The translations under genes and the position numbers were made by a program. 64,000 nucleotides of DNA, taken from positions 7,368,001 to 7,432,000 of the forward strand of contig OY987233.1 of NCBI GenBank assembly GCA_963920705.1, read 5' to 3'. Within the stretch, counting starts at the first letter, position 1. Every line of letters starts with the position of its first letter. The stretch is from Odiellus spinosus (lineage: Eukaryota; Arthropoda; Arachnida; Opiliones; Phalangiidae). This document shows, one piece after another, positions 22,835-63,950 of the stretch. The notes beneath the pieces were generated by a model that saw nothing but the letters and a program-made list of their open reading frames with translations, had not been told where the DNA came from and searched no databases.

Positions 22835-22913
22835 ATGCCAGGCGGAAGACGAGGTCTTGTGGCTCCTCAAAACACTTTCCTTGAAAACATTATCCGGCGA
22901 TACAACTCCTTGC
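22835..22913 (+). CDS. eag: eag exon 1 (start codon, PAS cap)
   Basis: 79 nt encoding [20 protein letters not shown] and RRYNSL plus one base; donor GTAAGT. In-frame stop TAG at 22817-22819 and context GAAAATGCC support this start, as does near identity to the known insect EAG N-terminus. An out-of-frame ATG at 22827 would open an overlapping uORF ending in exon 2. Confidence 0.95.
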
Positions 22914-31900: not shown

Positions 31901-34900
31901 TATATTTGGAAAATCCCAATTAAAACGATAGTAAAATATTTCGTATATACGGTTAGAACTAATTAATGATCTTACTAATGGTACCAAATGTTTCTTTCAT
32001 GTATAACTATAGATATATATGCGTAAAATTAGGTCAAGCACGTCGTTCCACTTGAAAAAATACTTCTTTTACATTAAAGTGAATCTGTTTCCATTTTTAT
32101 CGAATATCTATATAATTACTGGGCATGTTTTACGGTGTTTAAATTAATTTCTAAAGTTTGGTTAAGTTTGAATGTAAGTGAAGAATAAAATCAATTCAAT
32201 AAAATTGGGCCAAGGTCTTGGTCATCAAACGCCGGCCTATTCTTTTAATGTTAAAACATTACAGGGTTGCCACAGTTTTTTCAGATTCAAATTCCCTGAT
32301 TTTCCAGGTTTTTCCCTGACTTTTTCCAACGATTTTCCCTGACCTTTTCCAACGATTTTTCCTGACCGTTTCGGCTAATACTACCCAATTTTAACCTTTT
32401 ATTTTTTTATATAATCGAGTTCGCCAAACTTTTTGCACGCGTATCTTTGTTCTAATCTATACATCTGACACGGTCAGCTGAGAATCTTTTCTGTAGATAA
32501 TGACTGTAATTTCCTGGCTTCTTAAAAAATCTTTAAAATCCCTGACTTTTTAAAATATCTTAAAATTCCCTGACTTTTTTGGTTCATTATCAAAATCCCT
32601 GACTTTTCCCGGTTTTCCCTGTTTTCGTTGACCTGTGGCAACCCTGCATTAAAACCGCTGTTGAAGGCTGAAATAATATGATTGGCCTGAATTTATATTT
32701 ACTTTTATTCAAACTTAACCAAACTTTAGAAATTAATATAAACACATAAAACGTGTCTAAAAATTGTTTGAAAGTTCTGGAATACGTTTTTTGACACTGT
32801 GATTCCTCGAATAAATTCAAAAGCTGTTCCATTTTTAGCTTCAAGTTTCCCTTTAAGGCTATTTTCCAAAATGCTACTCAAATTCCATTTCATTTTTTTT
32901 TTTTTAGATATCAATGACAGCATCACTTTGATGAAAGTAGAATGAAACAGAGTTACTGTTAGTTTAATTTCGTTTTTATCTCGTTGGATAGGTTATATAA
33001 ATAAATGGTACAAAACGTTCAACAGTCAAAACTGAATACTAAACATAGAAAAATATATAAACTACCTTGACAATAAGGCCGTATTTAGGTCGCTTAAAAA
33101 GGTTTAATAGGTATAATGAAAAGTTACGAGAGAAGACTGTGAATTAAATAGTTGCCTATTAATGTTCTTTCATTAAAGGGAGTGTGAAGATGAATATTAT
33201 GTGGTTTTTATCTAAACTTAAATTAATTAGCTTAAAGGGAGATTGCTACCTAACAACAAATGATTTTTATAGCTTCCTTATCGTTTAAATAGGCCTAATC
33301 CACCAATAAAATAATTTACAAACAAATATTAAACTAAAGTAACTAACTTAACCTCAGTAAAGGGAGTGTGAAGATGAAAATGATGTAGTTTTTATCTAAA
33401 ATTAAATAACTAACTTAAATGGAGCATGCAACCTAACAACAAATGATTTTTTATCGATTTCTTACCGTTTAAATAGCCCCTAATCGATCAATAAAACAAT
33501 TTACAAATAAATAAACTAAAATAACTAAAGTAATCTCGTGAGTGGCTGCTTAATTTAAACACCAAAAACGTGTCTAAAAATTGTTAAACAAATACTGAAA
33601 TACGTTTTTTGGTATTTTTTTCCATTTTTACCTCCAAGTTTCCTTTTAATAAAACCGAAATCAACAAAAAAAAGGCTGAAAACTTTATTTTTAGGGTGTA
33701 GGCTACGTTTTCAATACCTTAATAAATTAACCCTAATTTTAATGAGATATTTTCTTCGTGCGGGATGAGAACGCGACGAAAAATTTACGTAACTTCATTC
33801 ATTATTAAAGTTCCCCTCAATTTTGTTTTTGAAAAACGCAAGGTGTTCCATATTTCTTCTTAATTTGACGACACGTAAACAAAACTACGGATTATTTTAC
33901 ATTATTTTAAGTGTGTCCTGACTTCGCTCACGAGAGTTACCAAATAAGGCTTAAATTTACTCCATTCACCGTGATAAAGTTAATGATGTTAATGTTGGAT
34001 AATCTAGAAAAAAGACCGCTTTATACTTCGACTCGAGCGTTTTACTAATTGCGTCTTAAAGGTGGATAAAAATATGCCTAAAATATCCTAGCTGACAACA
34101 ATATCTATATCATAATTGAAGTTTTTAATCAGAGTATAGCGAAGAAGAAGGACTTTACGTGCGAACTTTTGACGTTGTGTTACTTCTAGTTACGGTTCGC
34201 GTGCATAGATTTTTTTATACGTCCAGGTAACACATAGTTTTGTATCAAACTCTATGATCTATAACATCTTATTAGAAAAATAGGTAAAGTTAGCTTTGGA
34301 AGAGTTGCAAACTGATCATAATACCTTACTTAGTAGAGTGCATGACTATGGAGTCTGCAAATACATATTTAATGTGGAAATCGCGATGGATGGAATAAAC
34401 GCAAACTAAAGTTTATAAATAACTCCGATATAGCACGCTCATCTATTTTATTAGAGATAATAGCGTCAGTGGCAGGTACGTTAGAAAAGCCGAATGCGAT
34501 GTTGTATCTATTTTTATCCATATAGAAGCCTTTCGACCCTATTGCTTTCATAGTTAAACAGACACGGCCGAGCTTTCAAAAGAAATGATGTTAGATAATG
34601 TTCTCATTTTTTCTCACTACAATATGAGAAAAATAAAAATAATATACATTCTAAGTTACAAGGTTGGAAAGGCGGATATATTTCTATAGATTAAGACGTT
34701 TTCTAATGGGAATTCGGTTCCTACTAAGAGAGTAATTTAGTATATTATGTATACGAATTTTGGTATATCAAAATAACTTTATAATCTTATATGACATCTT
34801 ATTATTTTTATGATCAAAATGAAGTTATCATGCAATATCAACAGTGTATGTATAAAAGTTTGGCACAGCAAGGTTTTTATGTAAGTAAAAAAGGTTATAA

Positions 34901-37900: not shown

Positions 37901-40900
37901 CTTTGAACTCACTCGTTTTCCTGTGAGGACGCGTTACACGACGCGCACAAATAATGGTGGACTGACGCGCACAATTAAAGATTGAAATGTATACAGAATA
38001 CTGGTCGCTGACGTCTCGTCATCGCGTGATTTCGAATCATCTGATTGCCCGGTTAGATTTTATTTTGTACATGGCGATCAAGCCTTTTTCTTACTCCGTA
38101 TATTTAAACTCAATTTAAAAATTATGACCTCTCGCTTTTAAGTCTCCAGTCCAACCTCAGGATACCAGTAAGTAGGAAAATATATAATTGGTACCATGAC
38201 GCGGCATACGCGGGCATGGCAACTAAAAGGAATTTAAAGTTTTCTTAAAATTGAGTACACATGGGACCGATTTATAAAAAAAAAGAAGTCCATGTGCAAG
38301 AAGAACCATTACAACTCTAACCTCCGACCTTGCGCTAGCTAGATACGCGTATCGGAAGACCTAAAAGAAAAAACACCCTACGACTGTAATTGTTCTGGGG
38401 GGGGGGGGGGCGGAGTCTCTGCCGTTTACAAATAAAAGTATTTACGAATTAAAGGGTAGGAGTCAAAGATTTTAAAGGTTATATAAGAAAATATAAATAA
38501 AGTCCGAATTTGCCGTTACATATAATATGATGACTCTTTCTTTGTTTCCATCCATGTATTCATCCACTACGCTTAGTTTAGAATAAGAACGACGAAAGCG
38601 GCATAACGATGTTATACCTCAATCGCGCCATGGCTCTGGAAGATTCGCTTCAATTCCGAACTCGTCAATTATAAGAGAGAAGGGTGATACCAAGGGATTA
38701 CTAGCTAAAGGGATATTGGCTAATTCGAATGATAAAATATACTAGCCTGACGTGACCTTACTAGCGTTGTTTTAATCTGCTAACTTAAAGATAACGAAAA
38801 GTGATTACCATGAACATCCACTAAGATACCAAAATATCTACTCGAGAATTAACGAGACGATCGAGACCAGAATAAACATTAAACTTTATTATTACAAGTA
38901 TAATTCTCATAAATTCAAAGAGCCCTGCAAAAAAAAGCAAACGAAGTCGTAAAAACAACATCGCGTTAAAGAACATATTTGCAAAAAACTATGCCAAGTC
39001 CTCCGCACTGTTCCTAAAGAAACGTAAGTCTTCCTTTACTCTGCTGTCCAAGAGATGTACAGGATGATGGCCCCAGGCATCTATCCACTACTTGTCCTCT
39101 ACTTGGCCTATCCTAATCCTTGAAGGCTAAGACATTCTAGGCGTCACCACGGAACTTCCACCTCTGCAGCAGGCTAGAGACGTCAACTTTTTTTTTTACA
39201 CGATATTGAACGCATGAATGACAGAGAGAGAATGTGTTCTATCCATAGGCGCAAATGACTTTTATCTCTCGAAAAACTACGTCGACTTCCCTTAAAAAAC
39301 GGATTTGGCCTACTGGCGATAGGCCAACTGAAAAACGTATTTACATCCCATTGTAAGAATTGGACGACGAGTCCGAAAGTTCGTTATGTCGAACACATGA
39401 TAGTACCGAAAGTTCGAATACTCAAAAGGGGCTGACTTCGCGTCGACTGCAACTAAATCAGACTGAGACTGTTGCACTCTACTAACGTAACCTTACCTAT
39501 AATATTATAAGAGGAATGGGTTAGAGCAAGTGTTTAACTAGTTGGAGGGATGACGTAGTTCGAGTGATTAACTAACGTAACCTTACCTAAAATATTACAA
39601 GAAGGGCAAGGAAACAAAATGTCCTTTCGAGGTTGTGAACTATCGATAAAGATTCCACTTGAGATTATGTACATGAAGATTACGGTCTATCAAGATTGTT
39701 TTGCATCGACATTATGTTCTGTCGAGGTTGCGTCCCATCGAGATTATATCCCATCGATATTGTGTCCTATCGCGCGTGTGTCCAATTTTGTTCTTATATC
39801 CGTATCCTTTCTAGACTCCTTTAAATTCTGCAGCATAATTTAAATTTCCCGCCAACTTTTATAACTAAATCAATTTATTGTACGTCTGTCTCAGAGTCCA
39901 TTTTCTAAGACATTTCAAAATCTCACCGTTATATACCATTTGGGCTATTGTATAATATACAAGTTTATGTACCCTGTGGCTTATAATCATTGATAAAAAA
40001 AATTCAATACGCACTATAAACGTTAAAAACACTGTTTTGCATTTGACTCAATACGTAGAATTCTAGGCATCGTCCTATATCTTTTAAACCAAAACATATA
40101 TCGTTTGTATCTCTCGCGTTCTGCTTTATTATTTATATTTAATTAGACACAAGTTTTTTATTCAACTGCATACACCAACGTTATCTTTTTATCCGTCTTC
40201 CTATCCAACGTAATCAAAGCTACTGTTATTCAGTCCTAGTATTCAACATAATAAAAGTATAATAAAAATATAATAGAACACCCTTGTAAATCTAACACAT
40301 TTCTCTCTTTCTAATGCAAACTCCCAATGAAACGCCGTCTTTCACGGTGTTTCAACCTTATCTACAGCTTTTGTTATCTCAGTCTTAGTATTAATCCGAA
40401 ACGTATAGAAAAATATAGAGTACCCCCACGAGCCTAACAAATTTTTCTCTCTCGAATGCAAACACTCAATGAAACGGACTCGCGGTCGGACGAAGAAGAA
40501 GAAGAAGAAGAAGAAGAAGAAGAAGAAGAAGAAGAAGAAGAAGAAGAAGAAGAAGAAGAAGAAGGAGAAAACCTCAGTTATCATTGACAAAAAAGATTCC
40601 ACCTCATAAGACAAATCTCCATAGACTTTTCTAATGAAATTTTGAGACACCTATAAATAAAACAGGCCAGCTGGCCTGTTTTTAATATAGGTGGGTAACA
40701 GTTTTTCAGGAATTCCTAAAATTAGATACCCATATTGCCGAAAACCTAAAAATGTAAACAAGAGACCAGTATCCCTTAGTTAAAGGTTTTAAAATAACAA
40801 GTATGTGTGACATTGAAATAAAAACACCTCTATAACAAATATGATTTATTTAGTCAAGCGTAATTCACGCGATGGTTAAAATAAATATTTCCATGTATGC

Positions 40901-43900
40901 AATGATCAGGCTGACGATGTAGAAGTTCTTGCTCAGGGTTCCCACTTCCTCAAAGTCTTGACGCATAGCGCGGTTTTCTAGCAGGCAGGTTTCTTCATAG
41001 AATGACTTATGCAGATGATAAGTAGATACTGCTGACAATGTGATGGACGAGTGTTTCATGGCACGCCAGTCAATTAATAAAGATGAGACGCTATCCTTCC
41101 ACCTTGGAGTTCAAAGTAATGACTAACCAATACTTCCAAGTTGACGTCGAGATATTAAGCAGTCAAATGATATTGTTTCGCTGAATACCTAGCCTTTTAT
41201 ACCCAAAGTAGGCAAGATAAAAAACGGGCCCACTAACAAAGAGTGGCCTACTGGGGGAGTGGTGTCCCACCGCCGATTTTTATAAACTAATGAATTAATT
41301 AAATCTGTCTCAGAGTCCATTTTTCTAAGACATTTTGGAAATCTCATCTCTATATATCATTGAGGCTAATGTGAAATACCCTAGTTTATCTACCCTACGG
41401 TACATCATTCTAATTTTGTTAATAAAACATTATCAACAAAACATTCCGTGCGTTTCTTAGATATAGAGACTAAAAAAATAGTTTCCTTATTCCGTCTTTC
41501 GCTTTGACTAAAAAAATAGTTTCCTTATTCCGTCTTTCGCTTTAACGTTATCTAAAGTTTTTGTTATCTCAGTCGTAGTATTCAACATCAGAAAAGTATA
41601 AAAAATATAGAACACCCCAACATTTCTCTCTCTCTCGAATGCAAACTCTGAATGAAACGCCGTCTTTCACGGGGCTTCAACGTTATCTATAAAGCTTTTG
41701 TTATCTCAGTCGAAGTATTCATCAGAAAAACATAGAAAAATATAGAGTACCCCCATGATCCTAACATATTTTTCTCTCTCGAATGCAAACTCTCAATGAA
41801 ACGGACTCGCGGTCGGGAGAAGAAGAAGAAGAAGAAGAAGAAGAAGAAGAATATCTCAGTTATCAATATGACAAAGAATTCCACCTCATAAGACAAATCT
41901 CCATAGACTTTTCTAATGAAATTTTGAGACACCTATAAATAAAACAGGCCAGCTGGCCTGTTTTTAATATATTTTTACCGATGAAAATATATAAGCACAG
42001 ACCAAGTACTATACTTAAAAGGAAGGTGAAAAAAGAAAATTAGATGTTTTTTTTTAATTAATTCTACTATTAAAACTAAGACTCGTTCGCCTATTAAAGG
42101 GAGAATGCAACCTAACAACAAGTGATTTACTGTCGATTCCTTATCGTTTAAATAGGCCTAATCCAACTGTAAAAAAATTACAAAACAAATATTAAACTAG
42201 AAATGAAATTAAAACTTACCCGGAAAATAGGCTTAGCGGGATTCATGGAGATTCTGATTACCTCCTCGTAAGGTCTAGCGACCAATGAGCGAACCCCCGT
42301 CGTTCACGCGAGATCGCCACGAGACTTACAATCGTTTTCGATTGGTTGCTAGACCTTATACGTGAGGAAATCAGGATCTCCGCGAATCCCTAGTTTAATA
42401 TTTGTTTGTAAATTTTTTCACTAGTGGATTAGGCCTATTTAAACAATAAGGAATCGATACAAAATTACTTGTTGTTAGGTGTAATTAAAGTCCGTAAAAC
42501 CTTATTTCCCTAAAATTAACATCTAATTGATTAGTGAAATTTGGGGGGGGGGGGTAATTAGCGCCGTATCTTCTCCGGATAATTTCCTAGAGTGTCGTAA
42601 TTATTTATTCCGGATAGCCCGATATGGTGCCTACAAAACGAGCCCAAGAACCTTTAATTCAAGTCAGTCAAACTGAAGGGTTTGAAATTTTAAAGGAAAG
42701 TTTACCAAGTTAGGACTTTCCCAAGTTAGGGGCTCCTACCATATAGTCATTATTATAGTCGCGTGATTTCGCTATTGTATAGAGCCTACAGTTGATTCTC
42801 GTCGCGTTCTGGCACCAGTGATAATGTACTTAATCCAGAACAGTCAACTACCTTTCGTACGAAAATTATCTTCATATATCGGAAACAAAATTAGTTCTAT
42901 ATTTTTGACATTTTCATTTTGAACCCATAGTTATAAAATTTTGAATATGGCGTGTGACAGCCTCACTTAAGCTTTTTATCGACTTCCCCTATAAAAACGA
43001 GTTATTGACTGTTCAAATATAATTCTAACAAGCGAGTACGAAGCGAACAGAGTTACACAGCCGAACTAGGACTTCATTGTTGCCTTCTTTTGGATGAGGA
43101 AATTTCATCGAGGGTCAAACCCAAAAAGTTAAAGTAAATAAATTATTCATTGTACACTTTAAGCTGCCAAGCTGTTTCTTTCACCAAAGATGGTGTGGAA
43201 AATGAAATCTTCAAAGAGAAAGTGTCAAGAATTTTTTTTCTCAGACTATTGGAGCTCGGAATCGGATAATGAATAACCATTATCCATTGATAACTCGGCT
43301 TCTTTTCAGATATTTTAATCTCGGATAAATTGTTTGTTTAATATGAAACCACAAATTATATAAACAGACGCGTATCAAATGGATACGAATTATCCGGAGA
43401 TTACATTTTAAGCTCGATTAATTAAAAAAATACGCGTTTATTCGAACGGATAACGCGAAGATAAAAATATGAAGTTTCTCGAAATCCGTGTAGAATGAAA
43501 TATAATAATTATATTTTAATCTAAATTGAAAGGAACAGCGACTAAATCACTACATTCTAGCTTCGAGATCTCAATTTGGGTTAAAATCGGGGAAGAAACT
43601 CGAGTTTCAAATGTTTCTAATCGGCGAATGAATAACTCCCTATCTTCTTCTGATAACTCGTATAACGTATCAATTTCCTATAAAAAATAAAAAGTTTGCC
43701 TTATATTTAGATACGTAATTAACTCGAATAAGAAATGGATATGTTTTATCTGATTGACATTCAATTAACAAAAGTATACGAATACCAAGCTCTACAAACT
43801 GTGTTAAACTGCGCTAATTCATTAAATAGACAGAGACCTAGAGACCCTTGAAAGGTTAGAACTTCTTTCTGGTTGGATAACGACATCCGCTGGATCTCCC

Positions 43901-55900: not shown

Positions 55901-58900
55901 AATCTTGATTCCAAGGGCGTCCGCAGTTGAAAAAAAAGTTGGTTAACCTAATTTCTCACTTGGTATCAACTTGTGGGCGGAAGAATCTAGCAAAATTCCA
56001 ATTAAGTTTAGGCTCTTTTTGGGTCCAGAAACTTTGCAGCGTCTCCCACCCCTTAATTTTCCCTCGGGCTATCGATTGGATGACAGGAACTCGTCCAAGC
56101 AAAAATAGTGAACGCGGCAATATTAGATGAGCTAAACGAAGTTCAAAGGTCAAGTCTCATTTATATTGACTTATTGATTAATAGATTATATTAGGCATAT
56201 TCAAAAACCTAAAAAAATGTTTTCATTTTACCAGAAGCCGATGAAACCCTCCTTTGAAGTCTATTACTCCCGGGTCTTGTCTACCCCTCTCTGTATGGGT
56301 TAGTTTCAAAAAGCGCGATTCGTACGCCTCCTAACGGTAGATATTTTCGGAGCGGGAGTTCGTCGAGCGAATATCTCTAGCAGCCTTGGAGTTCGTCAAA
56401 AAAACGTCGTCATTTGTGGAGAGAGAATTTCCAATTTTCCGTAGACAGGGGGCGTGAAGTAGGACCCCGCCGATCTCGTAAAATTGTGAATTTTACCCAT
56501 ACAGAGAGGGGCGCTATGTGGAACATTAGAGTATTAGACTTCAAAGGAGGGTTTCATCGGCTTCTGATTTTACATTAATTATTAAATATGTTAAAAACGA
56601 AAATATTCAATAGTTTGCCAGCGATCACCCCGACCACGTGACGTATTATGTAACGAACTAAATGATTGTGCGAATGAACCAATGAGAAATCCCAGTACAT
56701 TCAATATTAACCTCTGTAAAAACGCGAAATCTAAAATTTAAGCCTAAAATAAATAAATTAAATTCAAACTAGGGTTTTAGATATCTTGAAAATTAAGAGA
56801 CTTGCCCTTTAAATCGCGTTGTAGGCGGAAAATCGAGCTTCTAAAAATGACAATTAGGAAGTAGGTCGTTGATTTTTATCGGTTTTTCTCTCCGCTGGCG
56901 TCTCTCGTCTCTTGATCATGCACTATAAGCGTCATTTAATTTTATCGCCATTTCTCACCCGATCCTATCAGTCTACTTGGGATTAAAGCCCAAACACCCA
57001 CGTGACCTCCTCCCTTTCGTTTTGATATCGCCCCTATTTCCCTTCAATCATTTCTAAGCTAGCAAAATTACACGTCTCTTTGAGAATCATCGTTCAAGGG
57101 GGTTGAATCAAAATAAATCTTTCATCTCTACGAAGTTCATCTTGGTGTATCATATCTTTTCCCCTATAATTACAACTCCTCGTGAACAGAAATATAAAGA
57201 TATTTTTACGTCTGACGTCATATTCCCCCCGTGAAAGATCTCGTCTAAAAATAGAGCGTAAACCAATTTAACTCCAAAAGTACACGCTTCTTCTTAAGGC
57301 CGTATCTGCTCTGAAATTTGCCTCTGTAAAATGCTTTTCCCTTATGATTAACTGATCATTTTCAATACTTTCCATAACTTTTCTCATTTTGTAAACTATG
57401 AATTGGCATATTGAGGTAGAGCGTTTATAATTAACAATTAAATTATTTGCAAATTAAATTATTTGCACATTTATGATTTTATATCACAAAAAATATCACT
57501 ATTATAGTAACTGATTCAAATCATCCCTGACTTTCACCCCAAAGATTTCTTGGCCCTTTCCCTGACCTTTTGGTCCGTTTTCAATCTCCCTGACTTTTCC
57601 AGGTTGCGTACTAACCCTGCTTTGTTCTAATCTGAAACTTCTTTAAGAAGAATATCTTTTAATTTGATTTTTTCTTTTTCGTTTGTCTTTCGCAGCGGAT
57701 TGCAGCTTCTTGCTGGCAAACGCCCAGATTGTGGACTATCCAATCGTTTATTGCTCAGAGTCTTTCTGCAAAATCTCCGGTTACAATCGAGCGGAGGTGA
57801 TGCAGAAGAGCTGCAGATGCAGCTTTATGTATGGAGAATTGACAGACAAAAACACTATCATGAAAGTCGAGCAGTGCCTGGACAATCTTACGCAGGACCA
57901 GTATGAGATCTTACTATACAAAAAGAACAGTCAGTAACATTCCATAGAAATCTTTCTTTTTTAAATTCTTTTAAATCTTTTCTCTCTCTCTTTTGCTATT
58001 ATTACATTATAAGTAAAGCTAGACCTTAGGTTATGACATTAGTAATGTTCATATAATTATGCGAATTAGTGTAATTATAACCATTCCGACTGAAATTCAA
58101 CCTAGAATTGGTTCGTTAATGTAAAAGTTTCTTTACCTATTTATTCCATAAAAGTAAACAACGCTTGGTAGAATAATACTATCAACAAAGGCCAAGTTTT
58201 ACGTCATAGCCCATCACTTAAAAGCAGCGAAAAATGTCATAACCCCTATCTGACTCAAGTAATTTGGACTCTTCCTCGATATTTTGAGTCGAGAGAGATG
58301 GAATTTAGGCGGGCCGCGCTTGGCTATATTGTCTTCCCCCAATTCAGGCATTTCTCCGCAGAGTGTCGCTTCCTCCGTTCACTATTTACACCGTCTGCGG
58401 CCGCTAGAGTGTGTCGAATCAGAATCTGCCGGTACATTTACCTGGACCTTTTCTAAAGGTATTAAGCTACGGGGGCGTTGTTTACTTTTATGGAATAAAA
58501 TGATAGACTTTTGATATTATACGTTTCGTCTAATTTTACTTATAAAAATGCTTCAATCTTCCATTCTTATTTTGTGAGATATAAAAGTCGTTAAAGAGTT
58601 AAAATGTTAAAGTTAATTTGAAATAAATTAATATGAAATTAACAATTTTAAAATAACAACTTTTATGATCACATCTAAGAATGGAATAAGTGTTTTTTGC
58701 AAATGGTTACTCACTTGTTATACTGTTTCAATATCAGTAGGTCAACTTTGGCTAACAACTAGTGATTCTTTATTGATTAATTGTTTAAATAAGATCTTAT
58801 CCATTAGGAAAATAATTACTAACCAAATATAAGGGTAGAAATAAAATTTTAACTTACCACGCGCATTTCAAACGTTTTACTGTCGAAATTACTGTGGTTC

Positions 58901-61900
58901 GCCAGTGACTCTTTAACAATGATATATCAAACCCTCCATGGATTATTGTTAAGCTATATTTTCCTGGTAAGTTGTTATTGGTTTGTAAGTTATTTTACTA
59001 ATGGATTAGGCCTATTTAAACGATAATGCATCGATATAAAATCACTTGTTGTCAGGTTTAATTCTTTCTTTAAAACTAATGAAGACCGAAAGTGTAACAT
59101 AAGTTAGAAGATAGAAATGAAACGGTAAAAGAAGCTTAGTGTTGAAACCATTTGCGAAAAGACCTAATAATTATTACATAGATATTATTTAGTACATAGT
59201 TGAGTTGATTTACGCAAATTTAGAATTTCAAATATTCCAATCACGCTTAAAATTTAAACTTAAAAGCCGGTATGATACCTCTTGTATATAATTATCTCTA
59301 GTAACTGTTGAGTTATCTTTGATCAAAATCGTGGCTTAAAAGCTTTTATCCTCATCCTTTGATCTTTAAATCGTGGCACTTAAAGTGTCTATCGGACAAT
59401 AATCCGAGTTTTCTAAAGCCCAATTTAAAGGCGCGTTATTTTCTAGTTTAGCAGACGACGTTGAACGTTACAAAAAGAACCGTCAAAGCTAGGCTGTGGG
59501 CAAAAAGGAAGATTATTTGAAGGGGCAAATTTTAGAGCAGATAGAGTTTTTAAAGGGACTATCTGCGATTTTTAAATCACCTTTAAAGTTAGCAGACGAC
59601 GTTGATCATAGTAAATTGTACAGTCAAAGCTAGGCGGTGTGCATAAGGGAAGGTGATTTTAAAAGGGCAAACTCTAGAGCAGATAGGATCTTTAAAGTGG
59701 TGCATTTTATAACAGAAACAAATATATATTCTAGATTTTGTACGGTGTATTTTGAATACGAAATTTAGGAATTCATTTTCAGGATAGTTCACTTTTTAAT
59801 TAAGAATATAACCCTATATCAATTAAAGTTTTGAAGGAAAGAATATGTTTTTAAGTAAAAGGTGTTTCTGTTTCTCGCGTAAGCCAAACGTCACACTGTT
59901 TCAGTTAAATTTTACGCCACGATTAGGGTCAAAGCGTAGGTCACGATATCTGAATTAACGCTCTAAATATAAACACAGGAAAGAGATAGATGAGGTTTAA
60001 TTTTTAAAATTAGAAGGCGACCCATTCACCTTGTCTTTTGTCATCCGAGATTTTGGTTCTATAAGGGGCAAGGGCTGAATTATCTTAGTAAACTCCCTGC
60101 TGGTAATTTAGATGTTAATTTAGATTTAAACGCCAGTATACCAAAGACGGAAGTTGGGGAGAACTAAGTTTCCTAGAGCCTGTCAAATTTCTCAGTAAAG
60201 GTCAAGTATATGTTATGAAAAATCAGGTTTTGGGTTCAAAGTTACGCTCTTTCGTATGTGGGACGTATTATTTGAGTTAAAAGCAGCCCCTAACCTAATT
60301 TAATTTGATTGGTTAAAGGATTATATCCTTACAGCCTTGAAAAAACATTAGAAAACAGAGATTATGCAGACTCTGTCGTTGAGATTGAGCATTCATTATC
60401 AACTTTATTCTAATGGTTCTATCGTCTGCTTATCAGATATTTTAGTGCCAGAAATCTTAAAGTGTAGACTGTCACGAAATATTTCACGAACTCCAAATGG
60501 AAATTGCACGAGTAATGGGCATCTGATACCATAAGTTGTATTAGAGTGAATTCGTGAGTTTAAATTGAAAGAGTTGTTCTTTAAAAAACACCCTTTTGTC
60601 GTGTGACGTTAGGTGGCTGATGCTTTGTTTCAAAATCGGGAGATTATAGAGCGAGACAGCTTATAAGATAATATAAGAGCATCAGGCGAAGAATGGGTCG
60701 CGCTTCCTTTCGTCTTTGATTTATTTTTCTCTCTTTTCTATTATTCTCTTTGGCTATTTCTTTCCTTATATAATAAATTGCGCTCAAAATGGACTTTCCA
60801 AAATATTTATCATCTAAATGATGCAAACAAAACAAACCAATTTCAAAGTTCAAACTACTTTACAAATTAAATAAAAGCAAAATATGGAAATCGAATTCCC
60901 TTATTTTTATTTTGTTACTTAGCAAATCAATGTGTCAATTAAATATAAAGATAATTATATAATAATTTAAAGTTATTTTTTGTATATATTGTTTTCCAAT
61001 ATAGTTTAGTATGAATATTCTTGCCTATAGATTTTTCGTAGTTTGATCGTTGCTTTCGACATTTGATATATTTAAATTAGAAAAATATGTAGATTTTTTC
61101 TTTTTGGATTATCTGTTATGGTCCATGGGCCCATTTAGTTCAATAAGGAACATATTTTAAACAAATATTTCGACTAAGGTGGTGTGGAGCCCATGTTTTT
61201 CAGGCATCACGTAACCTACGATGATTTACTTTGTAGTATTAAACGATTAAATTTGTAGTTAACTGTATCGCGTAGTTTGTAGGCTGTAGACATTTTGCGT
61301 AAAAAAGAATGCCTCTGTAGATTGCGCAAATAGGCTTAGCATAGTCGCGAATGAATGTTGGTCCATTTTGGGCGTGCTTCGCTACAAAAAAGCACTTAGA
61401 AAAGCGACTGTCAATTCATGTTGAGTGCAGGTCTCTTTTCTGGTGCCGTGCCAGGAACGCCGTTGTGGTTGTTGCTACACGTGGCTCCTATCAAAAATGA
61501 GAAAGACCAAGTGGTCCTGTTTCTGCTCACCTTCAGGGATATCACCGCCCTCAAGCAGCCACTCGAAGATGATGCTGTTAAGGGTAAGTTCCCACGCGCG
61601 GTTCAAATTATTCTCTCGTCATTAAAATATGTATATATATTCATTATTTTAAATATAGTACAATATTTTGTTTCCCTACATACACATACGCGCATGTCAC
61701 ATTTATGTTCACAATTCTTCATTTTTCTTATATTATAATATTACACGTATAATATTCAAGTCTGTTTTACGAATACGTTTGAAATTAGGGCATCTATATG
61801 CAGGATATCGATACATATTTTTCATACCTAGACCTAAGCTACGGACACACTTAAGTCTTAAAGTGGACGTTTCTTAGACAATCAAATTATGTTTCGCCAC

Positions 61901-62924
61901 TGATAGAAATCGAGCAAAAGCCCGAAAAAAACCCTATCTTAAAATGGTTGTAGCTTTTCTCTATGAATTCTTAGACCTAAACCGATTGCACCATTGGAAA
62001 TTAGACATCCCTTAGATTATTTTAAGACAATCAAATTATGTTTCGCCACTCGGAAAAGATGTTTCGCCACTGATAGAAATCGAGCAAAATCCTGAAAATA
62101 TCCCTATCCTAAAATGGTCGTAACTTTTTTCTATGACCGCCAAGACATAAACCGATTGCACCATTGGAAATTAGACGTTCCTTAGATTATTTTAAGTCAA
62201 TCAAATTATGTTTCGCCACTCGAAAAAGAAGATTCGCCACTATATAAATCGAGAAAAATCCCGAAAAAAAAACTCTATCTTAAAATGGTTCTAACTTTTC
62301 TCTACTACTTCCTAGGCATAAACCGATTGCCCCCTGGAAATTAGACAATCAAATTATGTTACGGCACACGAAAAAGATGATTCGCCACTGATATAAATCG
62401 AGCAAAATCCCGAAATTTTCTCTATGAATTCCTTGTCATAAACTGATTGCACCATTGAAAAGTAGAGGTTCCTTAGATTATTTTAAGTCAATCAAATTAT
62501 GTTTCGCAGCCTTTGGTTCATTTACTTCTGGTGTAATGGATTATCATCTGAAATAGTAACACTAAACCGTGTAGGCTTATACACGAAGTTTGTTTCTATC
62601 TTTGTTTAGGCCGTGTTTGATTTTCGAGCATACACTTAAGCCTAATTTTATCGACAGACATAATTTATTCATATTAATTAACTGATTGACCTTTCTCTTT
62701 TTTCTCTTTTGCATGAATGTGCTTCTTCTCGTGGCTCTCTCGTGTTGAATCGTATTTACACGTTTTGTATTTCAGATACTCATTTTATTTTTCCAGCGGG
62801 TTTGAGCAAGTTCGCCAGGTTGGCCCGGTCCGTCACTCGAAGCCGTTCGGTGTTAGTCCAGCAATTCTCATCCCATCTGCCAGCCATCAAGTCTGAGACG
62901 ACCAAGCAATCGCAAATTGCTCAT
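22835..62924 (+). CDS. eag: ether-a-go-go (EAG/KCNH-type) voltage-gated potassium channel, N-terminal exons (continues to the right)
   Basis: EAG channels are plasma-membrane K+ channels that set neuronal and muscle excitability; their N-terminal PAS domain modulates gating. Exons 22835-22913, 57696-57929, 61455-61583 and 62797-62924 join in phase into 190 codons. Residues 1-26 ([18 protein letters not shown]..) are the PAS cap. Residues 28-130 are the PAS domain with [65 protein letters not shown] and [17 protein letters not shown]. The following linker is [24 protein letters not shown]. Transmembrane segments, pore and C-terminus lie beyond the window. Intron 1 is 34.8 kb. Confidence 0.97.
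22960..23085. repeat. hairpin just inside eag intron 1
   Basis: Arms CTCAACTTTTAGGCTTCCCC and GGGGAAGCCTAGAAGGTGAG pair over about 43 bp with few mismatches; the loop has a second small stem (CCTCACTGTTTTGAGG). It starts 46 bp after the exon 1 donor and itself contains a GTGAGT. Confidence 0.7.
23140..23650 (+). repeat. minisatellite, about 30-bp unit, 17 copies
   Basis: Unit TTAAAGGGTCATGACAAAGA TATATATTC with length variation, starting 230 bp into eag intron 1. Confidence 0.9.
23651..24260. other. eag intron 1, unassigned
   Basis: Unique-looking AT-rich DNA; one octamer-type ATATGCAAAT site near 23798. No exon found. Confidence 0.3.
24262..24316. mobile_element. solo end of family A
   Basis: GGAATCGATAAAAAAAATCC to GGTTGGATTCTCCCTTTAAT matches the right terminus of family A; no left half. 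Confidence 0.6.
24337..24889 (+). mobile_element. family D MITE, subfamily 2
   Basis: TA-flanked element with ends AGAGCTCGGAGTCGGATA and AATTCCGAGCTCT. Same as 45667-46213 and the inverse of 26770-27316. The 146-codon frame that starts inside it (24802-25242) is not credible as a gene. Confidence 0.8.
25515..25860 (+). mobile_element. family C element, truncated
   Basis: Contains GAGTAGCATTTTCGGAAAGA, CCCGCAATACTACGTCATCA and CTGGCACCAGTGATAAGGTA in family order; the terminal CACTTTAA end is lost. Confidence 0.75.
25875..26205 (+). mobile_element. family N element
   Basis: GATGAAGCTGCAATAAATCG, CGTTCATACTAGGCCTTGGA and AATGCTAGTGTGACCGTAAC, as in the 51238-51940 cluster. Confidence 0.65.
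26395..26470 (+). promoter_or_regulatory. LTR-like TATA to AATAAA module
   Basis: TCTATAAAGGC at 26407-26417 is followed 50 bp later by CTAAATAAACTC (26458-26469), the compact promoter plus poly(A) signal spacing of a retroelement LTR. No paired LTR or internal domain was seen. Confidence 0.25.
26770..27316 (-). mobile_element. family D MITE, subfamily 2, inverted
   Basis: AGAGCTCGTAATTGGTATAA to CCGATTCCGAGATCTA. A family O fragment (AAGTAGACACGCAAGTCCTG) abuts it at 26710-26765. Confidence 0.8.
27317..27482 (-). mobile_element. family B fragment
   Basis: ACATTAAAAGAAGAGGCTGG..CATCAAATACCGG and GGCTGAAATAATATGATTGG blocks, as in the copies near 32220 and 44200. Confidence 0.6.
27483..28060. 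other. eag intron 1, unassigned
   Basis: No exon, repeat family or RNA gene recognised. Confidence 0.3.
28061..28626 (+). mobile_element. family D MITE, copy D2
   Basis: Near-identical to D1 (13549-14102) over most of its length, ends GAGCTCGACTCGG and TTCGATTCCGAGC. Confidence 0.8.
28812..30010 (+). mobile_element. family C element expanded by an internal minisatellite
   Basis: AAAGTGAGGCTGTCACGGAT start, then the conserved CTGGCACCAGTGATAAGGTC block; from 29128 on it becomes the tandem array listed next. The distal TIR is missing. Confidence 0.8.
29128..30010 (+). repeat. 21-bp minisatellite, about 42 copies
   Basis: Unit AAACAACGTCATATTTTAGA T, very homogeneous, with TTCGAT, TACAT and ATATTAG variants clustered in blocks. 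The founder AAACTACGTCATATTTTAGA is an ordinary internal part of family C. Each unit carries a TGACGT-type half CRE. Confidence 0.95.
30513..30999 (+). mobile_element. family H element
   Basis: Starts CAGGGTTGCCACAGACCTGG and ends CTGTGGCAACTCGG; interior AAAGTCAGGGAATTT repeats near both ends. The translated [16 protein letters not shown]-type frame is repeat read-through. Confidence 0.75.
31123..31343 (-). mobile_element. family C half element
   Basis: AAGGCTGTCATTAG end to AAAGACCGCGCGAAA, reverse orientation, cut off exactly where family A copy A4 begins. Confidence 0.7.
31344..31722. mobile_element. family A MITE, copy A4
   Basis: GAGAGAATGCAACCGAACAA to CTTGTTATTAGGCTGC, inverted arms; loop with CCAATCGAATGTTATTGG shared with A6 and A8. 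Confidence 0.8.
32205..32880 (-). mobile_element. family B element interrupted by a family H insertion
   Basis: Left part to 32256 and right part from 32652 read as one family B copy (GGCCGGCGTTTGATGACC.. side and GGCTGAAATAATATGATTGG .. TTAAAGGGAAACTTGAAGC on the minus strand). Confidence 0.8.
32262..32646 (+). mobile_element. family H element with 5-bp target duplication
   Basis: 385 bp, perfect 14-bp TIRs CAGGGTTGCCACAG / CTGTGGCAACCCTG, flanked by CATTA on both sides, with the unoccupied site visible in other family B copies. Interior is TTTTCCCTGACTTTTTCC-like repeats. No ORF: a non-autonomous DNA transposon. Confidence 0.85.
33232..33660. mobile_element. tandem family A left ends joined to family B
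   Basis: Two copies of AAAGGGAG(A)TTGC..ACCTAACAACAAATGATT (33232 and 33414) in direct orientation, separated by GTGTGAAGATGAA repeats (also at 33180), then a family B piece from about 33540. Confidence 0.6.
33661..34368. other. eag intron 1, unassigned
   Basis: No exon or repeat recognised on either strand. Confidence 0.3.
34369..34590 (-). CDS. coding-like stretch, unidentified
   Basis: Open frame on the minus strand with purine-first codon pattern, containing [20 protein letters not shown] and [20 protein letters not shown]. It could start at the ATG at 34551 (60 codons to TAA), or be an exon from an acceptor-like TTTCTTTTGAAAG near 34590. No promoter, donor or family recognised. It may be a nested exon, a transposon remnant or chance. 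Confidence 0.25.
35080..35181. repeat. 102-bp near-perfect hairpin
   Basis: TAGCTCGCTAAGCCTCGGCC and the complementary GGCTTAGCGAGCTA end; arms about 45 bp with ACTCTATAAAGG/GAGTAGG mismatches, short loop around TTTGCTTTGACTCAAAG. Size resembles a pre-miRNA or a tiny MITE. Confidence 0.6.
35483..35876. mobile_element. family I element, full copy
   Basis: TIRs ATCAAAAGTCTATCACTTTA and its inverse ATAAAGTGATAGATTTTTTG; core with GCGGCCGC and GGAAGACAATATAGCCAAG. Overlapping opposite-strand frames are not genes. Confidence 0.8.
35935..36130 (+). pseudogene. LINE reverse-transcriptase C-terminal remnant
   Basis: [15 protein letters not shown] (from 35938) resembles the LQ.KC.RII segment after the RT domain of jockey/CR1-like LINEs; after a frame shift [17 protein letters not shown] continues the usual L..LNIL....LY pattern. 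Stops and the shift show it is dead. Confidence 0.4.
36339..37266. repeat. long inverted repeat, ~365-bp near-perfect arms
   Basis: Arms 36339-36705 and about 36900-37266 with a ~195-bp spacer. Each arm has two direct ~145-bp subrepeats (ATTATACAAAAACGTTGTTT .. GTCTAAGAAATCATAAAGCT). Only scattered mismatches are visible, so it is recent or maintained. Transcribed within eag pre-mRNA it would fold into a long dsRNA hairpin. Confidence 0.9.
37267..38870. other. eag intron 1, unassigned
   Basis: No exon seen. Contains a 13-base G run (38398-38410) and GACGCG-rich sequence near 37930-37970. Confidence 0.3.
39625..39780. repeat. short degenerate tandem repeat
   Basis: TCGAGGTTGTG, TCGACATTATG, TCGAGATTATATCCCA and similar 16-18-bp units. 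The 74-codon frame over it reflects this periodicity. Direct copies of ACTAACGTAACCTTACCT precede it at 39482 and 39582. Confidence 0.5.
39884..40690 (+). repeat. direct repeat, unit 1 (with (GAA)n)
   Basis: Begins TGTCTCAGAGTCCATTTTCT and ends AAACAGGCCAGCTGGCCTGT TTTT. Matches 41306-41970 in order and orientation. A (GAA)n tract of about 24 units spans 40492-40563. A minus-strand frame through it (poly-Phe) recurs in unit 2 but is not taken as a gene. Confidence 0.8.
40492..40563 (+). repeat. (GAA)n microsatellite
   Basis: About 24 uninterrupted GAA units; a second, shorter tract of about 11 units is at 41818-41851. Confidence 0.95.
40845..40850 (-). terminator. poly(A) signal of the 64-codon gene
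   Basis: AATAAA on the minus strand 15 nt past the stop, followed by a G/T-rich stretch (TTGTTATAGAGGTGTTTT). Confidence 0.45.
40865..41059 (-). CDS. candidate intronless small membrane protein gene inside eag intron 1
   Basis: 64 codons, antisense to eag. On this strand TATAAAAGG (41201-41193) is followed by an initiator TATCATTT (A at 41168), a 109-nt leader with no upstream ATG, start context GTGCCATGA, stop TGA and AATAAA 15 bp later: a complete compact transcription unit of about 345 nt. The protein has a polar N-terminal half with helix-like [18 protein letters not shown] and a hydrophobic C-terminus (residues 46-64, [19 protein letters not shown]), suggesting a tail-anchored or single-pass small membrane protein. 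Its G+C is higher than its surroundings. No family recognised; a repeat-borne ORF is the main alternative. Confidence 0.5.
   Translation of the reverse strand: MKHSSITLSAVSTYHLHKSFYEETCLLENRAMRQDFEEVGTLSKNFYIVSLIIAYMEIFILTIA
41193..41201 (-). promoter_or_regulatory. TATA box of the 64-codon gene
   Basis: TATAAAAGG, 33 bp upstream of a TCATTT initiator whose A is at 41168. Confidence 0.45.
41306..41970 (+). repeat. direct repeat, unit 2
   Basis: TGTCTCAGAGTCCATTTTTC to ACAGGCCAGCTGGCCTGTTT, matching unit 1. Internally it has a short extra duplication (ATAGTTTCCTTATTCCGTCT twice). The 64-codon gene lies between the two units; no copy of the gene follows unit 2. Confidence 0.8.
42094..42487. 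mobile_element. family A MITE, copy A5
   Basis: TTAAAGGGAGAATGCAACCT start, inverted arms, loop GTAAGGTCTAGCGACCAATG; the right end is damaged (TTAGGTGTAATTAAAG). Confidence 0.8.
42740..42968 (+). mobile_element. family C element, truncated
   Basis: CGCGTGATTTCGCTATTGTA to GTGACAGCCTCACTTAAG, i.e. the right half with its TIR. Confidence 0.8.
43252..43794 (-). mobile_element. family D MITE, copy D3 (inverted)
   Basis: GAGCTCGGAATCGGATAATG to AGCTCTACA; reverse complement of D1/D2. Confidence 0.8.
43795..44189. other. eag intron 1, unassigned
   Basis: Nothing recognised. Confidence 0.3.
44190..44440 (-). mobile_element. family B element
   Basis: GGCGTCAAACGCCGGCCTAT, GGCTGAAATAATATGATTGG and CAAGTTTCCCTTTAA end. 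Confidence 0.7.
44508..44726 (+). CDS. hypothetical 72-aa ORF with a hydrophobic C-terminus
   Basis: ATG-initiated frame [15 protein letters not shown]..., with [19 protein letters not shown] as a possible membrane segment. It ends at the TATAAAAGC promoter-like site. An opposite-strand 92-codon frame overlaps it, so at most one is real. No family recognised; weak candidate. Confidence 0.15.
   Translation: MSCGSSIASHIFKKCIRLSSSLALSELISHTRETRHFLNEKIFWNLLVVVAVLLAAFSFLGRNVCSFFIVTV
44722..44787 (+). promoter_or_regulatory. TATA box plus X-box module with a start and donor-like sequence
   Basis: TATAAAAG (44722-44729), then GTCTCCATGGCGAC (44755-44768, RFX X-box type), whose ATG opens ATGGCGACGGTAGTGACGCAA followed by GTGAGT (44782). 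This resembles a compact alternative promoter with a first exon in eag intron 1. The phase (0) does not fit eag exon 2 (needs 1), so it would not give an in-frame EAG isoform by simple splicing. Confidence 0.3.
45066..45391 (-). mobile_element. family D MITE, truncated (inverted)
   Basis: GAGCTCGGAATCGGATAATG start and the CGAAATCCGTGCAGAATGAA block; lost beyond G AAACTCGAGTTTT. Confidence 0.75.
45667..46213 (+). mobile_element. family D MITE, subfamily 2, intact
   Basis: AGAGCTCGGAATCGGATATC to ATACGAATTCCGAGCTCT, flanked by TA. Frames inside it (46007-46213) are repeat-derived. Confidence 0.85.
46627..47071. mobile_element. family A MITE, copy A6, TTAA at both ends
   Basis: TTAAAGGGAGAATGCAACCT to GGTTGCATTCTCTCTTTAA. 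The loop has CCAATCGAATATTATTG and the CCTTCAATGCGAAG mirror. Confidence 0.85.
47420..47932 (-). mobile_element. family C element, nearly full (inverted)
   Basis: From TTTTATCATACTATTAAAAC to CATGACAGCCTCACTTTA with all conserved blocks. A detached end (CGTTACAGCCTCACTTTAAA) sits at 48085-48107. Confidence 0.8.
48345..48396 (+). repeat. poly(T)-rich tract
   Basis: CTATTTTTTTTTCTTTTC followed by about 30 T residues; could be the 3' tail of a minus-strand retroposed sequence, though no body was identified. Confidence 0.6.
48560..49385 (+). repeat. tandem repeat, about 180-bp unit, 5 copies
   Basis: CGTCCGATTTTGACGTAGTT and TGTTGCATTTTGAAGCTCAC recur at about 48600, 48781, 48959, 49140 and 49288 with the CAAAATGTCAATCTAAATTA segment. 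Satellite-like unit length. Confidence 0.85.
49383..49508 (+). CDS. short coding-like segment, Lys/Arg-rich
   Basis: Open frame [20 protein letters not shown] then [21 protein letters not shown]-stop, starting right where the 180-bp satellite ends, with an acceptor-like TATTAG before it. It might be a terminal exon or remnant; no partner exon was found. Confidence 0.15.
   Translation, partial: DLPFIEVLEDRSYKRKERKRAMNPGKRSRSPKTKLVKDVPN
49812..50398 (+). repeat. 23-bp minisatellite grown out of a family C element
   Basis: A family C right-middle block (CTGGCACCAGTGATAAGGTC, 49829-49848; AGAAATACTTAATCCAG, 49873-49889) passes directly into AAATACGTAAATACTTAGTA CTT repeated over 20 times to 50398. 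The unit resembles the element's own ATACTTAAT. Confidence 0.9.
50394..50590 (+). mobile_element. family B element
   Basis: TTAAAGGGAAACTTAAAGCT to TTAATGTTAGGACATTACA; it abuts the 23-bp array at its TTAA end. Confidence 0.75.
50985..52145. mobile_element. large inverted repeat with family N insertions in the centre
   Basis: Outer arms GAGGGGGTTTGCGTAAGAGG .. CAAGGGGAGGTATTTTTCAT and the inverse ATGAAAATTACCTCCCCTTG .. CTCTTACGCAACCCCACCTC. Between them, 51238-51540, 51535-51785 and the inverted 51780-51940 are family N copies (CGGTTTCAACAACCGATAGA). The 119-codon frame (51353-51712) comes from these repeats. Confidence 0.75.
52233..52596. mobile_element. family A MITE, copy A7
   Basis: TTAAATGGAGAATACAACCT to GGTTGCATTCTCCTTTTAA, inverted arms. 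Confidence 0.8.
53042..53405 (+). mobile_element. family C element, left part
   Basis: AAAGTGAGGCTATCACGGAT to CCAGAAATAAACTAC with all blocks in order; the right TIR is absent. Confidence 0.8.
53406..54570. other. eag intron 1, unassigned
   Basis: Triplicated GGGCCC-centred motif (GGGGCCCCAAAATC, AAAGGGCCCTGAATTT, AAAGGGCCCTAAAA) at 53457-53516; otherwise nothing recognised. Confidence 0.3.
54571..54816 (-). CDS. hypothetical 81-aa ORF with paired basic sites
   Basis: ATG to TAA on the minus strand. The middle, [20 protein letters not shown] then [19 protein letters not shown], has coding-like codons, two dibasic/tribasic sites and two Cys; both ends are hydrophobic and repeat-like. It could be a decayed exon or part of a secreted precursor. 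No signal peptide is evident and no family was recognised. Family A copy A8 lies immediately upstream of its start. Confidence 0.25.
   Translation of the reverse strand: MFHYTFIYNLKYSKVRTKLNFGTDYLMDEFGGRRVHFNRDRRQGRVDKFCLKCEINPYRPNTREKHLFLYSLFLDFILVYV
54834..55208. mobile_element. family A MITE, copy A8
   Basis: TTAAAGGTAGAATGCAACCT to GGTTGCATTTTCCCTTTAA; loop of the A4/A6 type. Confidence 0.8.
55209..55400 (+). mobile_element. family B fragment abutting A8
   Basis: AAAGGGAAACTACGACC to GGGCCAATCATATTACTTCG. It shares the CTTTAAAGGGAAA junction with A8. Confidence 0.6.
56232..56566. mobile_element. 335-bp hAT-like MITE with 7-bp target duplication
   Basis: TIRs CAGAAGCCGATGAAACCCTC and GAGGGTTTCATCGGCTTCTG (about 39 bp), flanked by ATTTTAC at 56225-56231 and 56567-56573. 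No ORF. Confidence 0.85.
56574..57525. other. eag intron 1, unassigned, near exon 2
   Basis: No exon or repeat family recognised. Confidence 0.3.
57525..57620 (-). repeat. family H fragment
   Basis: TCATCCCTGACTTTC, CCCTGACCTTTTGGTCC and CTTTTCCAGGTTGCG motifs, 75 bp before eag exon 2. Confidence 0.7.
57696..57929 (+). CDS. eag: eag exon 2 (PAS domain core)
   Basis: 234 nt, acceptor GTTTGTCTTTCGCAG, donor GTCAGT. Encodes P27 to N104 plus one base: [20 protein letters not shown] through [10 protein letters not shown]. The donor at 57930 was chosen because A+GA makes the conserved Arg of KKNRTPLW; a second GT at 57934 would break the frame. Confidence 0.96.
58132..58523. mobile_element. family I element, nearly full
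   Basis: CTATTTATTCCATAAAAGTA to TTTTATGGAATAAAATGATA, core GCGGCCGC and GGCGGGCCGCGCTTGGCTA. In eag intron 2. Confidence 0.8.
58752..59075. mobile_element. family A MITE, copy A9 (diverged)
   Basis: CTAACAACTAGTGATTC to CACTTGTTGTCAGGTTTAAT and CTTTAAA end; the most degraded copy, arms only partly pairing. Confidence 0.65.
59445..59700 (+). repeat. two direct copies of a ~130-bp segment
   Basis: GTTTAGCAGACGACGTTGAA .. GAGCAGATAGAG and GTTAGCAGACGACGTTGATC .. GAGCAGATAGGA; related to 11930-12110. Confidence 0.7.
59701..61454. other. eag intron 2 remainder
   Basis: A family C TIR fragment (AAAGTGTAGACTGTCACG..CTCCAAATGGAAATTG) lies at 60468-60508. No alternative exon was recognised. Confidence 0.35.
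61455..61583 (+). CDS. eag: eag exon 3 (PAS domain C-terminal part)
   Basis: 129 nt, acceptor GGTGCCGTGCCAG, donor GTAAGT. Encodes R105 [20 protein letters not shown] and [22 protein letters not shown]. Phase 1 in, phase 1 out. Confidence 0.96.
61860..62512 (+). repeat. tandem repeat, about 165-bp unit, 4 copies (eag intron 3)
   Basis: Units share GACAATCAAATTATGTTTCG CCACTGATAGAAATCGAG and ACCGATTGCACCATTGGAAA TTAGAC. It takes up half of the 1.2-kb intron. Confidence 0.85.
62797..62924 (+). CDS. eag: eag exon 4 (post-PAS linker)
   Basis: 128 nt, acceptor TTTATTTTTCCAG, donor GTAAGC. Encodes [20 protein letters not shown] and [23 protein letters not shown]. Compared with the Drosophila form there are extra residues after RSR (SVLVQ), a length variant also seen in other EAG proteins as I recall. 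Phase 0 out; the next exon is outside the window. Confidence 0.95.
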
Positions 62925-63950
62925 GTAAGCACCCCCTTCAACCCGCAACTAAGCCTCGAGCGAATGACAATGCTCAGTCCGTCCGTCCGTCCCCGTTATA
63001 CCCTATAAATTTTAATACTAAGCTTGCGTATGTCCGCGACCACAAGTCATGGGATTTATCGCTATGGATACAGTTCGATGCTCAAATGCCTCTTCAAATA
63101 CTTAGACCAATCAAGTATAATGAAACAACGTGTTTTTATTTGATAATGTAAAGTAATCAAAGATAGATATTTTATTGTATAAGGGAAATACTTAAAATAA
63201 TAAGAAAATATATATATTAAGCTTATTATTTACCATGGTGATGATATAGTTGAAATTTAACTTATTTCACAGGGAAAACGTCTTACTTAAGAGACGTTTC
63301 GCGCCTAGGCTCTTTTTCAGTCGATGAAATGTCTCTTAAATAAAGTTTTACGTTCAATAAGATGTCGTTTTCTCTGTAAAAAAAAGTAAACATTTCAAGA
63401 AAATATGATTGTCCCCAAAATATTTGATTCTCAAATTCAATTCAAATCAACAATTAACTTCATGAGCTTGCCAGACAAAACTGATTCTTGTTACTGGATA
63501 AGAAATAGTGTATATTTATTCATCAGTATTGGCTTAATTAAAAGCAAAACACAATGAAAATCAGAAAAGCTCACATCTCTAATTTTGCAGAGTGATGTCA
63601 TCAAAAACTGGGAAATTAGGAAGTCAAATTTCGGTGCCAAAACAACCGCGGAATTATGGAATTTGTGCAGGGATATCAAGTGAATTATCAGATAAAAGCA
63701 ACTTGTTTCATTATTTTATTTAAACTAATGGTAATGAGAATTGAAATGGCGTGCTATTATTCAAGCATACAGTACTGGGGGTGTCTAACAAGCTACATGC
63801 GTGCGCGGGGGCAAAAAGCGTTTGGCAACAGCATGCGCATGAGCCTGCTTTTTCGATAAAGAGACTTAAGTAATTTTACCATCCAAAATTTAAGCAAAGC
63901 GAGCCCTGGGTTTTTTCTACATGAGCCATGGTCCTATATATATGTATAGT
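62925..63950. other. eag intron 4 (partial)
   Basis: No further exon found. The frame continuing past the 62925 donor is read-through. Confidence 0.4.

Follow-up and report, generated by a model that had tools for sequence, protein, structure and literature searches.

Does intron 1 of the eag-type potassium channel gene of Odiellus spinosus (Opiliones, Phalangiidae) hold a complete small gene on its opposite strand? The question arises in a 64,000-nucleotide stretch of contig OY987233.1 (positions 7,368,001 to 7,432,000; hereafter the window), which has a guanine-plus-cytosine (GC) content of 34% by base counts, and it concerns a unit at 40845-41201 on the minus strand. We tentatively read this unit as a candidate antisense nested microprotein gene, with a single exon and driven by a TATA box and an initiator, and give this reading a probability of about 0.4. 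It is partly supported: the anatomy of the unit fits, and so do the distance between TATA box and initiator and a codon signal that looks coding-like over part of the ORF.

Anatomy of the candidate inside eag intron 1

The host intron and the elements of the candidate, including its open reading frame (ORF), are listed below in window coordinates; the intron was placed by probe match and splice sites, the other rows by reading the sequence.

22914-57695, plus strand: eag intron 1 (host), GTAAGT...CAG
41201-41193, minus strand: TATA-box-like TATAAAAGG, found nowhere else on the two strands of the window
41170-41165, minus strand: initiator-like TCATTT (fits TCAKTY), with A+1 at 41168
41168-41060, minus strand: putative 5′ leader of 109 nt, without ATG
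41059-40865, minus strand: ORF of 64 codons (coordinates including the stop), ATG at 41059, TGA at 40867-40865
40850-40845, minus strand: AATAAA, 14 nt past the stop codon
40816-40830, minus strand: GT/T-rich stretch downstream of AATAAA, a possible downstream cleavage element by its inferred role

An eag-type potassium channel gene runs along the plus strand, with its 5′ part inside the window. A Drosophila eag probe matched the window at 22835-22909 (24 of 25 residues), 57695-57931, 61457-61630 and 62799-62999, and the ORF at 61418-61735, a later coding piece that contains the third of these matches, was similar to PDB chains of KCNH1 (best E value 7e-18). GTAAGT lies 3′ of exon 1 and TTTCGCAG 5′ of exon 2, and a codon split between the two exons, followed by hand, stays in phase across the junction; because of these splice junctions and the in-phase split codon, intron 1 is assigned to 22914-57695. 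The initial annotation had placed the candidate in this intron, and the match of exons 1 and 2 to the probe, together with the agreement of splice sites and phase, bears this out. The candidate unit lies wholly within the one intron and on the strand opposite to its host, which is the arrangement of a nested antisense gene.

The same annotation had described, within 357 bp of the minus strand, an initiator 33 bp downstream of the TATA-like sequence, a leader free of ATGs, an ATG, the ORF and AATAAA, and all of these are found at the places given for them. The A+1 of the initiator is 33 bp from the first T of the TATA-like box and 31 bp from the second T. Promoter statistics from Drosophila position the TATA box at its second T and find an excess of TATA-initiator pairs at distances of 30-34 bp, peaking strongly at 31 and 32 (PMC1538597); placing the initiator at its A for this comparison is our own reading. 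A TATA-like box and a TCAKTY sequence thus stand at the favoured spacing, as in a predicted TATA/initiator focused promoter. The ORF opens with the first ATG of the leader and has fewer than 100 codons, as expected of a short coding sequence by position, and GAGGTGTTTTTATTT follows AATAAA on the minus strand.

What is observed is that these elements exist, in this order and at this spacing, along with a local codon periodicity and a hydrophobic segment; transcription, translation, membrane insertion and a function are our inference. RNA polymerase II would start at ~41168 on the minus strand, and cleavage after AATAAA near 40830 would give a transcript of ~340 nt. This transcript would encode a helical microprotein of 64 amino acids (aa), whose C-terminal ~19 residues may act as a membrane anchor and so make it a tail-anchored or single-pass membrane protein.

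Codon signal and predicted protein

GC content by codon position in the ORF (0.41/0.31/0.55) is similar in shape to that of 207 eag exon codons (0.49/0.38/0.62), and the GC content of the whole ORF is 0.42 vs 0.33 for the intron, with 7.2% of 5743 intron windows equally GC-rich. Codon periodicity was scored with a model trained on the 207 eag exon codons and ranked among the 63 ATG-initiated ORFs of at least 50 aa. The ORF came second of the 63, exceeded by a GAA/TTC microsatellite ORF only. When 192-nt windows of the intron were scored (9846 in all), 1.1% reached its periodicity and 0.7% its total coding score, and 41 of 1430 stop-free intron windows equalled it in periodicity. The signal amounts to 0.25-0.28 bits/codon in 75-nt windows from 40978, 40954 and 40930, and the part of the ORF concerned can be entered as a further feature.

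40868-40990, minus strand: coding-like island, the last 41 codons of the ORF, delimited by codon scores with its start picked after the score had been seen

When the island was compared with 4574 stop-free 123-nt intron windows, its periodicity was matched by 64, its total score by 92 and both scores by 22, of which 21 overlap the GAA microsatellite and one is the island itself. The coding-like codons first claimed for the ORF as a whole are therefore found in the last ~41 codons and not, by windowed periodicity, in the first ~23.

The proposal of a C-terminal membrane segment agrees with the hydropathy of the predicted protein: its last 19 residues have a Kyte-Doolittle mean of 2.23, the third highest among the 63 ORFs, six of which reach 1.9. 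AlphaFold, run on the single sequence, returned one helix over residues 5-63, with a mean predicted local distance difference test (pLDDT) score of 85.8 and a predicted template modelling score of 0.46. We regard this helix as weak evidence, because hydrophobic helical sequences often model well.

Chance, coding fragment or repeat

Several results weigh against a nested gene. By total coding score the ORF ranks 6 of 63, and its codon-position composition bias is unremarkable in a plain chi-square test, being reached by 6.8% of the 9846 intron windows. Periodicity does not rise above zero in the 60-nt steps that start from 41110 to 41020, and the opening ~23 codons do not look coding. The amino-acid composition of the protein is neutral against intron translation (-0.04 bits/residue), and the stop-to-stop frame of the ORF ranks 26 of 151 by this measure. 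The codon model itself was built on just 207 codons and scored two of five held-out eag exon pieces below zero; the AlphaFold comparison comprises one other intron ORF (pLDDT 68.5), and a single control is too few. Searches with the 64-aa ORF, its stop-to-stop form of 80-81 aa or its last 45 residues gave no relative in Pfam, NCBIfam, PHROGs or PDB, of which Pfam and PDB include eukaryote proteins. Eleven stretches in viral contigs and 79 in prokaryote genomes fitted a pattern, none of them confirmed, and a protein search of phage and plasmid records with the ORF returned nothing.

The strongest rival is chance, namely that the AT-rich intron holds an ORF like many others, which lies among incidental TATA-like, initiator-like and AATAAA motifs and was picked out by a reader seeking such sets. 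It is favoured by the missing homolog in the databases searched, and by the N-terminal half and the amino-acid composition, which do not look coding. The null model consisted of 1200 simulated 64-kb windows (order-3 Markov) and the reversed window, with an earlier, smaller run of 60 simulated windows. ATG-initiated ORFs of at least 60 aa number 30 in the window vs a mean of 25.6 in the 1200 simulations and 25 in the reversed window; ORF length alone is at chance level and uninformative. AATAAA occurs 231 times and TATAWAW 251 times on the two strands, 205 of the 1200 simulations pair TATAAAAG with TCAKTY at some distance of 26-34 bp, and a loose form of the architecture, which has two cases in the window and none in the reversed window, appeared at least once in 270 of 1200 and 15 of 60 simulated windows, a frequency that also counts against the nested gene.

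Chance accounts less readily for the closer description of the unit. The strict set (TATAAAAG, TCAKTY, an ATG-free leader, an ORF of at least 60 aa and AATAAA within 30 nt) occurs once in the window and is absent both from the reversed window and from all 1200 simulated ones; the earlier run, with a near-identical definition, had it in 1 of 60, and with TATAWAWR as the TATA box the counts were 1/1200 and 1/60. The pairing of TATAAAAG with TCAKTY at 31-32 bp, likewise present once in the window, was seen in just 38 of 1200 simulations, and the C-terminal periodicity was equalled by just 64 of the 4574 stop-free windows. The element kit is unusual, and no given p-value can be attached to it: we claim only "unusual" because the strict definition was fitted after the candidate had been seen. 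Chance is a possible explanation, somewhat less probable than the nested gene. The second case found under the loose criteria, a minus-strand ORF at 32726-32923 (65 aa, AT-rich, with flat codon-position GC), is a useful negative control.

A different origin for the codon signal is unlikely: the last ~41 codons may belong to a larger minus-strand gene for a membrane protein, as its terminal or an internal exon or as what is left of it, the ATG and promoter motifs being incidental. The signal is confined to about 40868-40990 and starts well inside the ORF, and the hydrophobic segment runs to the stop. An acceptor-like site at 41032, inside the ORF and upstream of the island, ranks within the best 4.6% of the window's minus-strand AG sites; at the stop, GTGAAT resembles a weak donor and is in the top 13.8% of GT sites. 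However, the acceptor scores 5.7 vs 11.0 for that of eag exon 2, and a second site at 40911, again within the ORF, looks just as good as an acceptor. The island piece has no match in Pfam or PDB, no further minus-strand intron window attains both island scores, and this explanation reduces the promoter and polyadenylation (poly(A)) motifs to coincidence.

The initial annotation had also drawn attention to two direct repeats around the candidate. They are real, but the ORF lies outside them, as the following features, established by sequence comparison, make clear.

39849-40689, plus strand: left direct repeat, with ~140-bp subrepeats, a GAA microsatellite and a terminal palindrome
40690-41269, no strand: 580-bp inter-repeat segment with the candidate gene, without a clear second copy in the window
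41270-41971, plus strand: right direct repeat

The subrepeats, the microsatellite and the palindrome are common to both repeats. The further suggestion that the repeats had duplicated or moved the ORF is not supported: both exclude it, the window shows no clear second copy of its segment, and the outer flanks align with that segment at shuffle level. A copy of the ORF segment hidden next to one of the repeats was sought and rejected, with local alignment scores of 11 vs a shuffle mean of 11.7 and 12 vs 12.5. Elsewhere in the window the inter-repeat segment has at best an AT-rich DNA match of 64% over 111 bp (E value 7.6e-4, low-complexity filter off), and the ORF segment scored 18 against its own reverse complement, where the shuffle maximum was 19. 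Flanking-repeat DNA had no match in viral contigs, nor had the DNA at 40690-41300 in phages. It is very improbable that the segment is a transposable or repeated element lying between two local repeat copies and supplying the promoter and poly(A) motifs: it has direct repeats on both sides, starts with GGTGGG, ends near CCCACC and has a foldback element nearby, but it lacks a clear second copy in the 64 kb, its inverted ends are short only, no target-site duplication was found by eye, and the nine scanned of 11 listed open pieces contain no Pfam domain, although a non-autonomous element would carry none.

The palindrome that ends both direct repeats is a near-palindrome with the perfect core AACAGGCCAGCTGGCCTGTT, at 40648-40693 (46 bp, 87%) and 41930-41964, the right copy being without the last few arm bases. 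The foldback element, at 42110-42480, lies a little to the right of the right direct repeat and resembles a miniature inverted-repeat transposable element, with 91-nt inverted arms that are 87% complementary and 189 nt between them.

Non-protein readings were also tried. A structured RNA is unlikely, as the predicted transcript has less structure than its shuffles (z +1.80, with 96 of 100 shuffles folding as well), and Rfam gave three matches over 39800-42600, up to an E value of 5 and all far under gathering scores. The GC-rich stretch upstream of the TATA-like box folds as its shuffles do (z -0.14). An origin from transfer RNA (tRNA) was rejected, the sole tRNA-like gene in the window being at 8597-8670. 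This minus-strand sequence is tRNA-Pro-like with anticodon GGG, possibly a tRNA-derived repeat or pseudogene; GGG is an unusual anticodon for tRNA-Pro in eukaryotes.

Comparison with nested and small genes of flies

What kind of gene would the candidate be? Nested genes make up ~6% of fly genes and are often on the opposite strand (PMC3786989). One described there is 2mit, in intron 11 of Drosophila tim2, and like the candidate it lies on the opposite strand and entirely within the host intron. Whereas 2mit is a conserved and expressed coding gene of 1141 aa in two exons (PMC3786989), the candidate has 64 aa, one exon and no homolog found. Our literature search combining "ether-a-go-go", "nested gene" and "intron" found no paper.

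In size class and in its single predicted transmembrane helix, the candidate resembles the short coding sequences (sCDS) of Drosophila, such as CG34250 with 54 aa. Their survey gives a length of about 70-80 aa, a putative transmembrane helix in 32% and the use of GC content as a coding indicator (PMC11674832). Unlike the candidate ORF, these sCDS are annotated, 47.5% have drosophilid homologues, and many have proteomic or ribosome-profiling (Ribo-seq) support (PMC11674832). Among fly genes, candidate de novo genes have a raised likelihood of encoding transmembrane proteins (PMC10821953). The GD19764/GM10790 family is a well-supported, taxonomically restricted family, limited to a clade and born in an intron (PMC8059200). 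The candidate shares with it a predicted transmembrane helix and an intronic position in a conserved host gene, which for the family holds in D. simulans. The ancestry of that family was studied by synteny (PMC8059200).

If real, the candidate would belong with the known intron-borne small transmembrane genes of flies. The fullest version of the nested-gene reading is a lineage-specific and possibly de novo gene for a tail-anchored membrane microprotein, complete in a minimal unit of ~360 bp from TATA/initiator to poly(A) signal and antisense in an eag intron; we consider this version decidedly unlikely. Should the unit turn out not to be transcribed, it would serve as a warning that AT-rich introns can hold complete-looking gene kits. 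If real, it would be a very compact, self-contained nested gene, would make a case for the origin of small membrane proteins in introns, and would show how such genes evade annotation.
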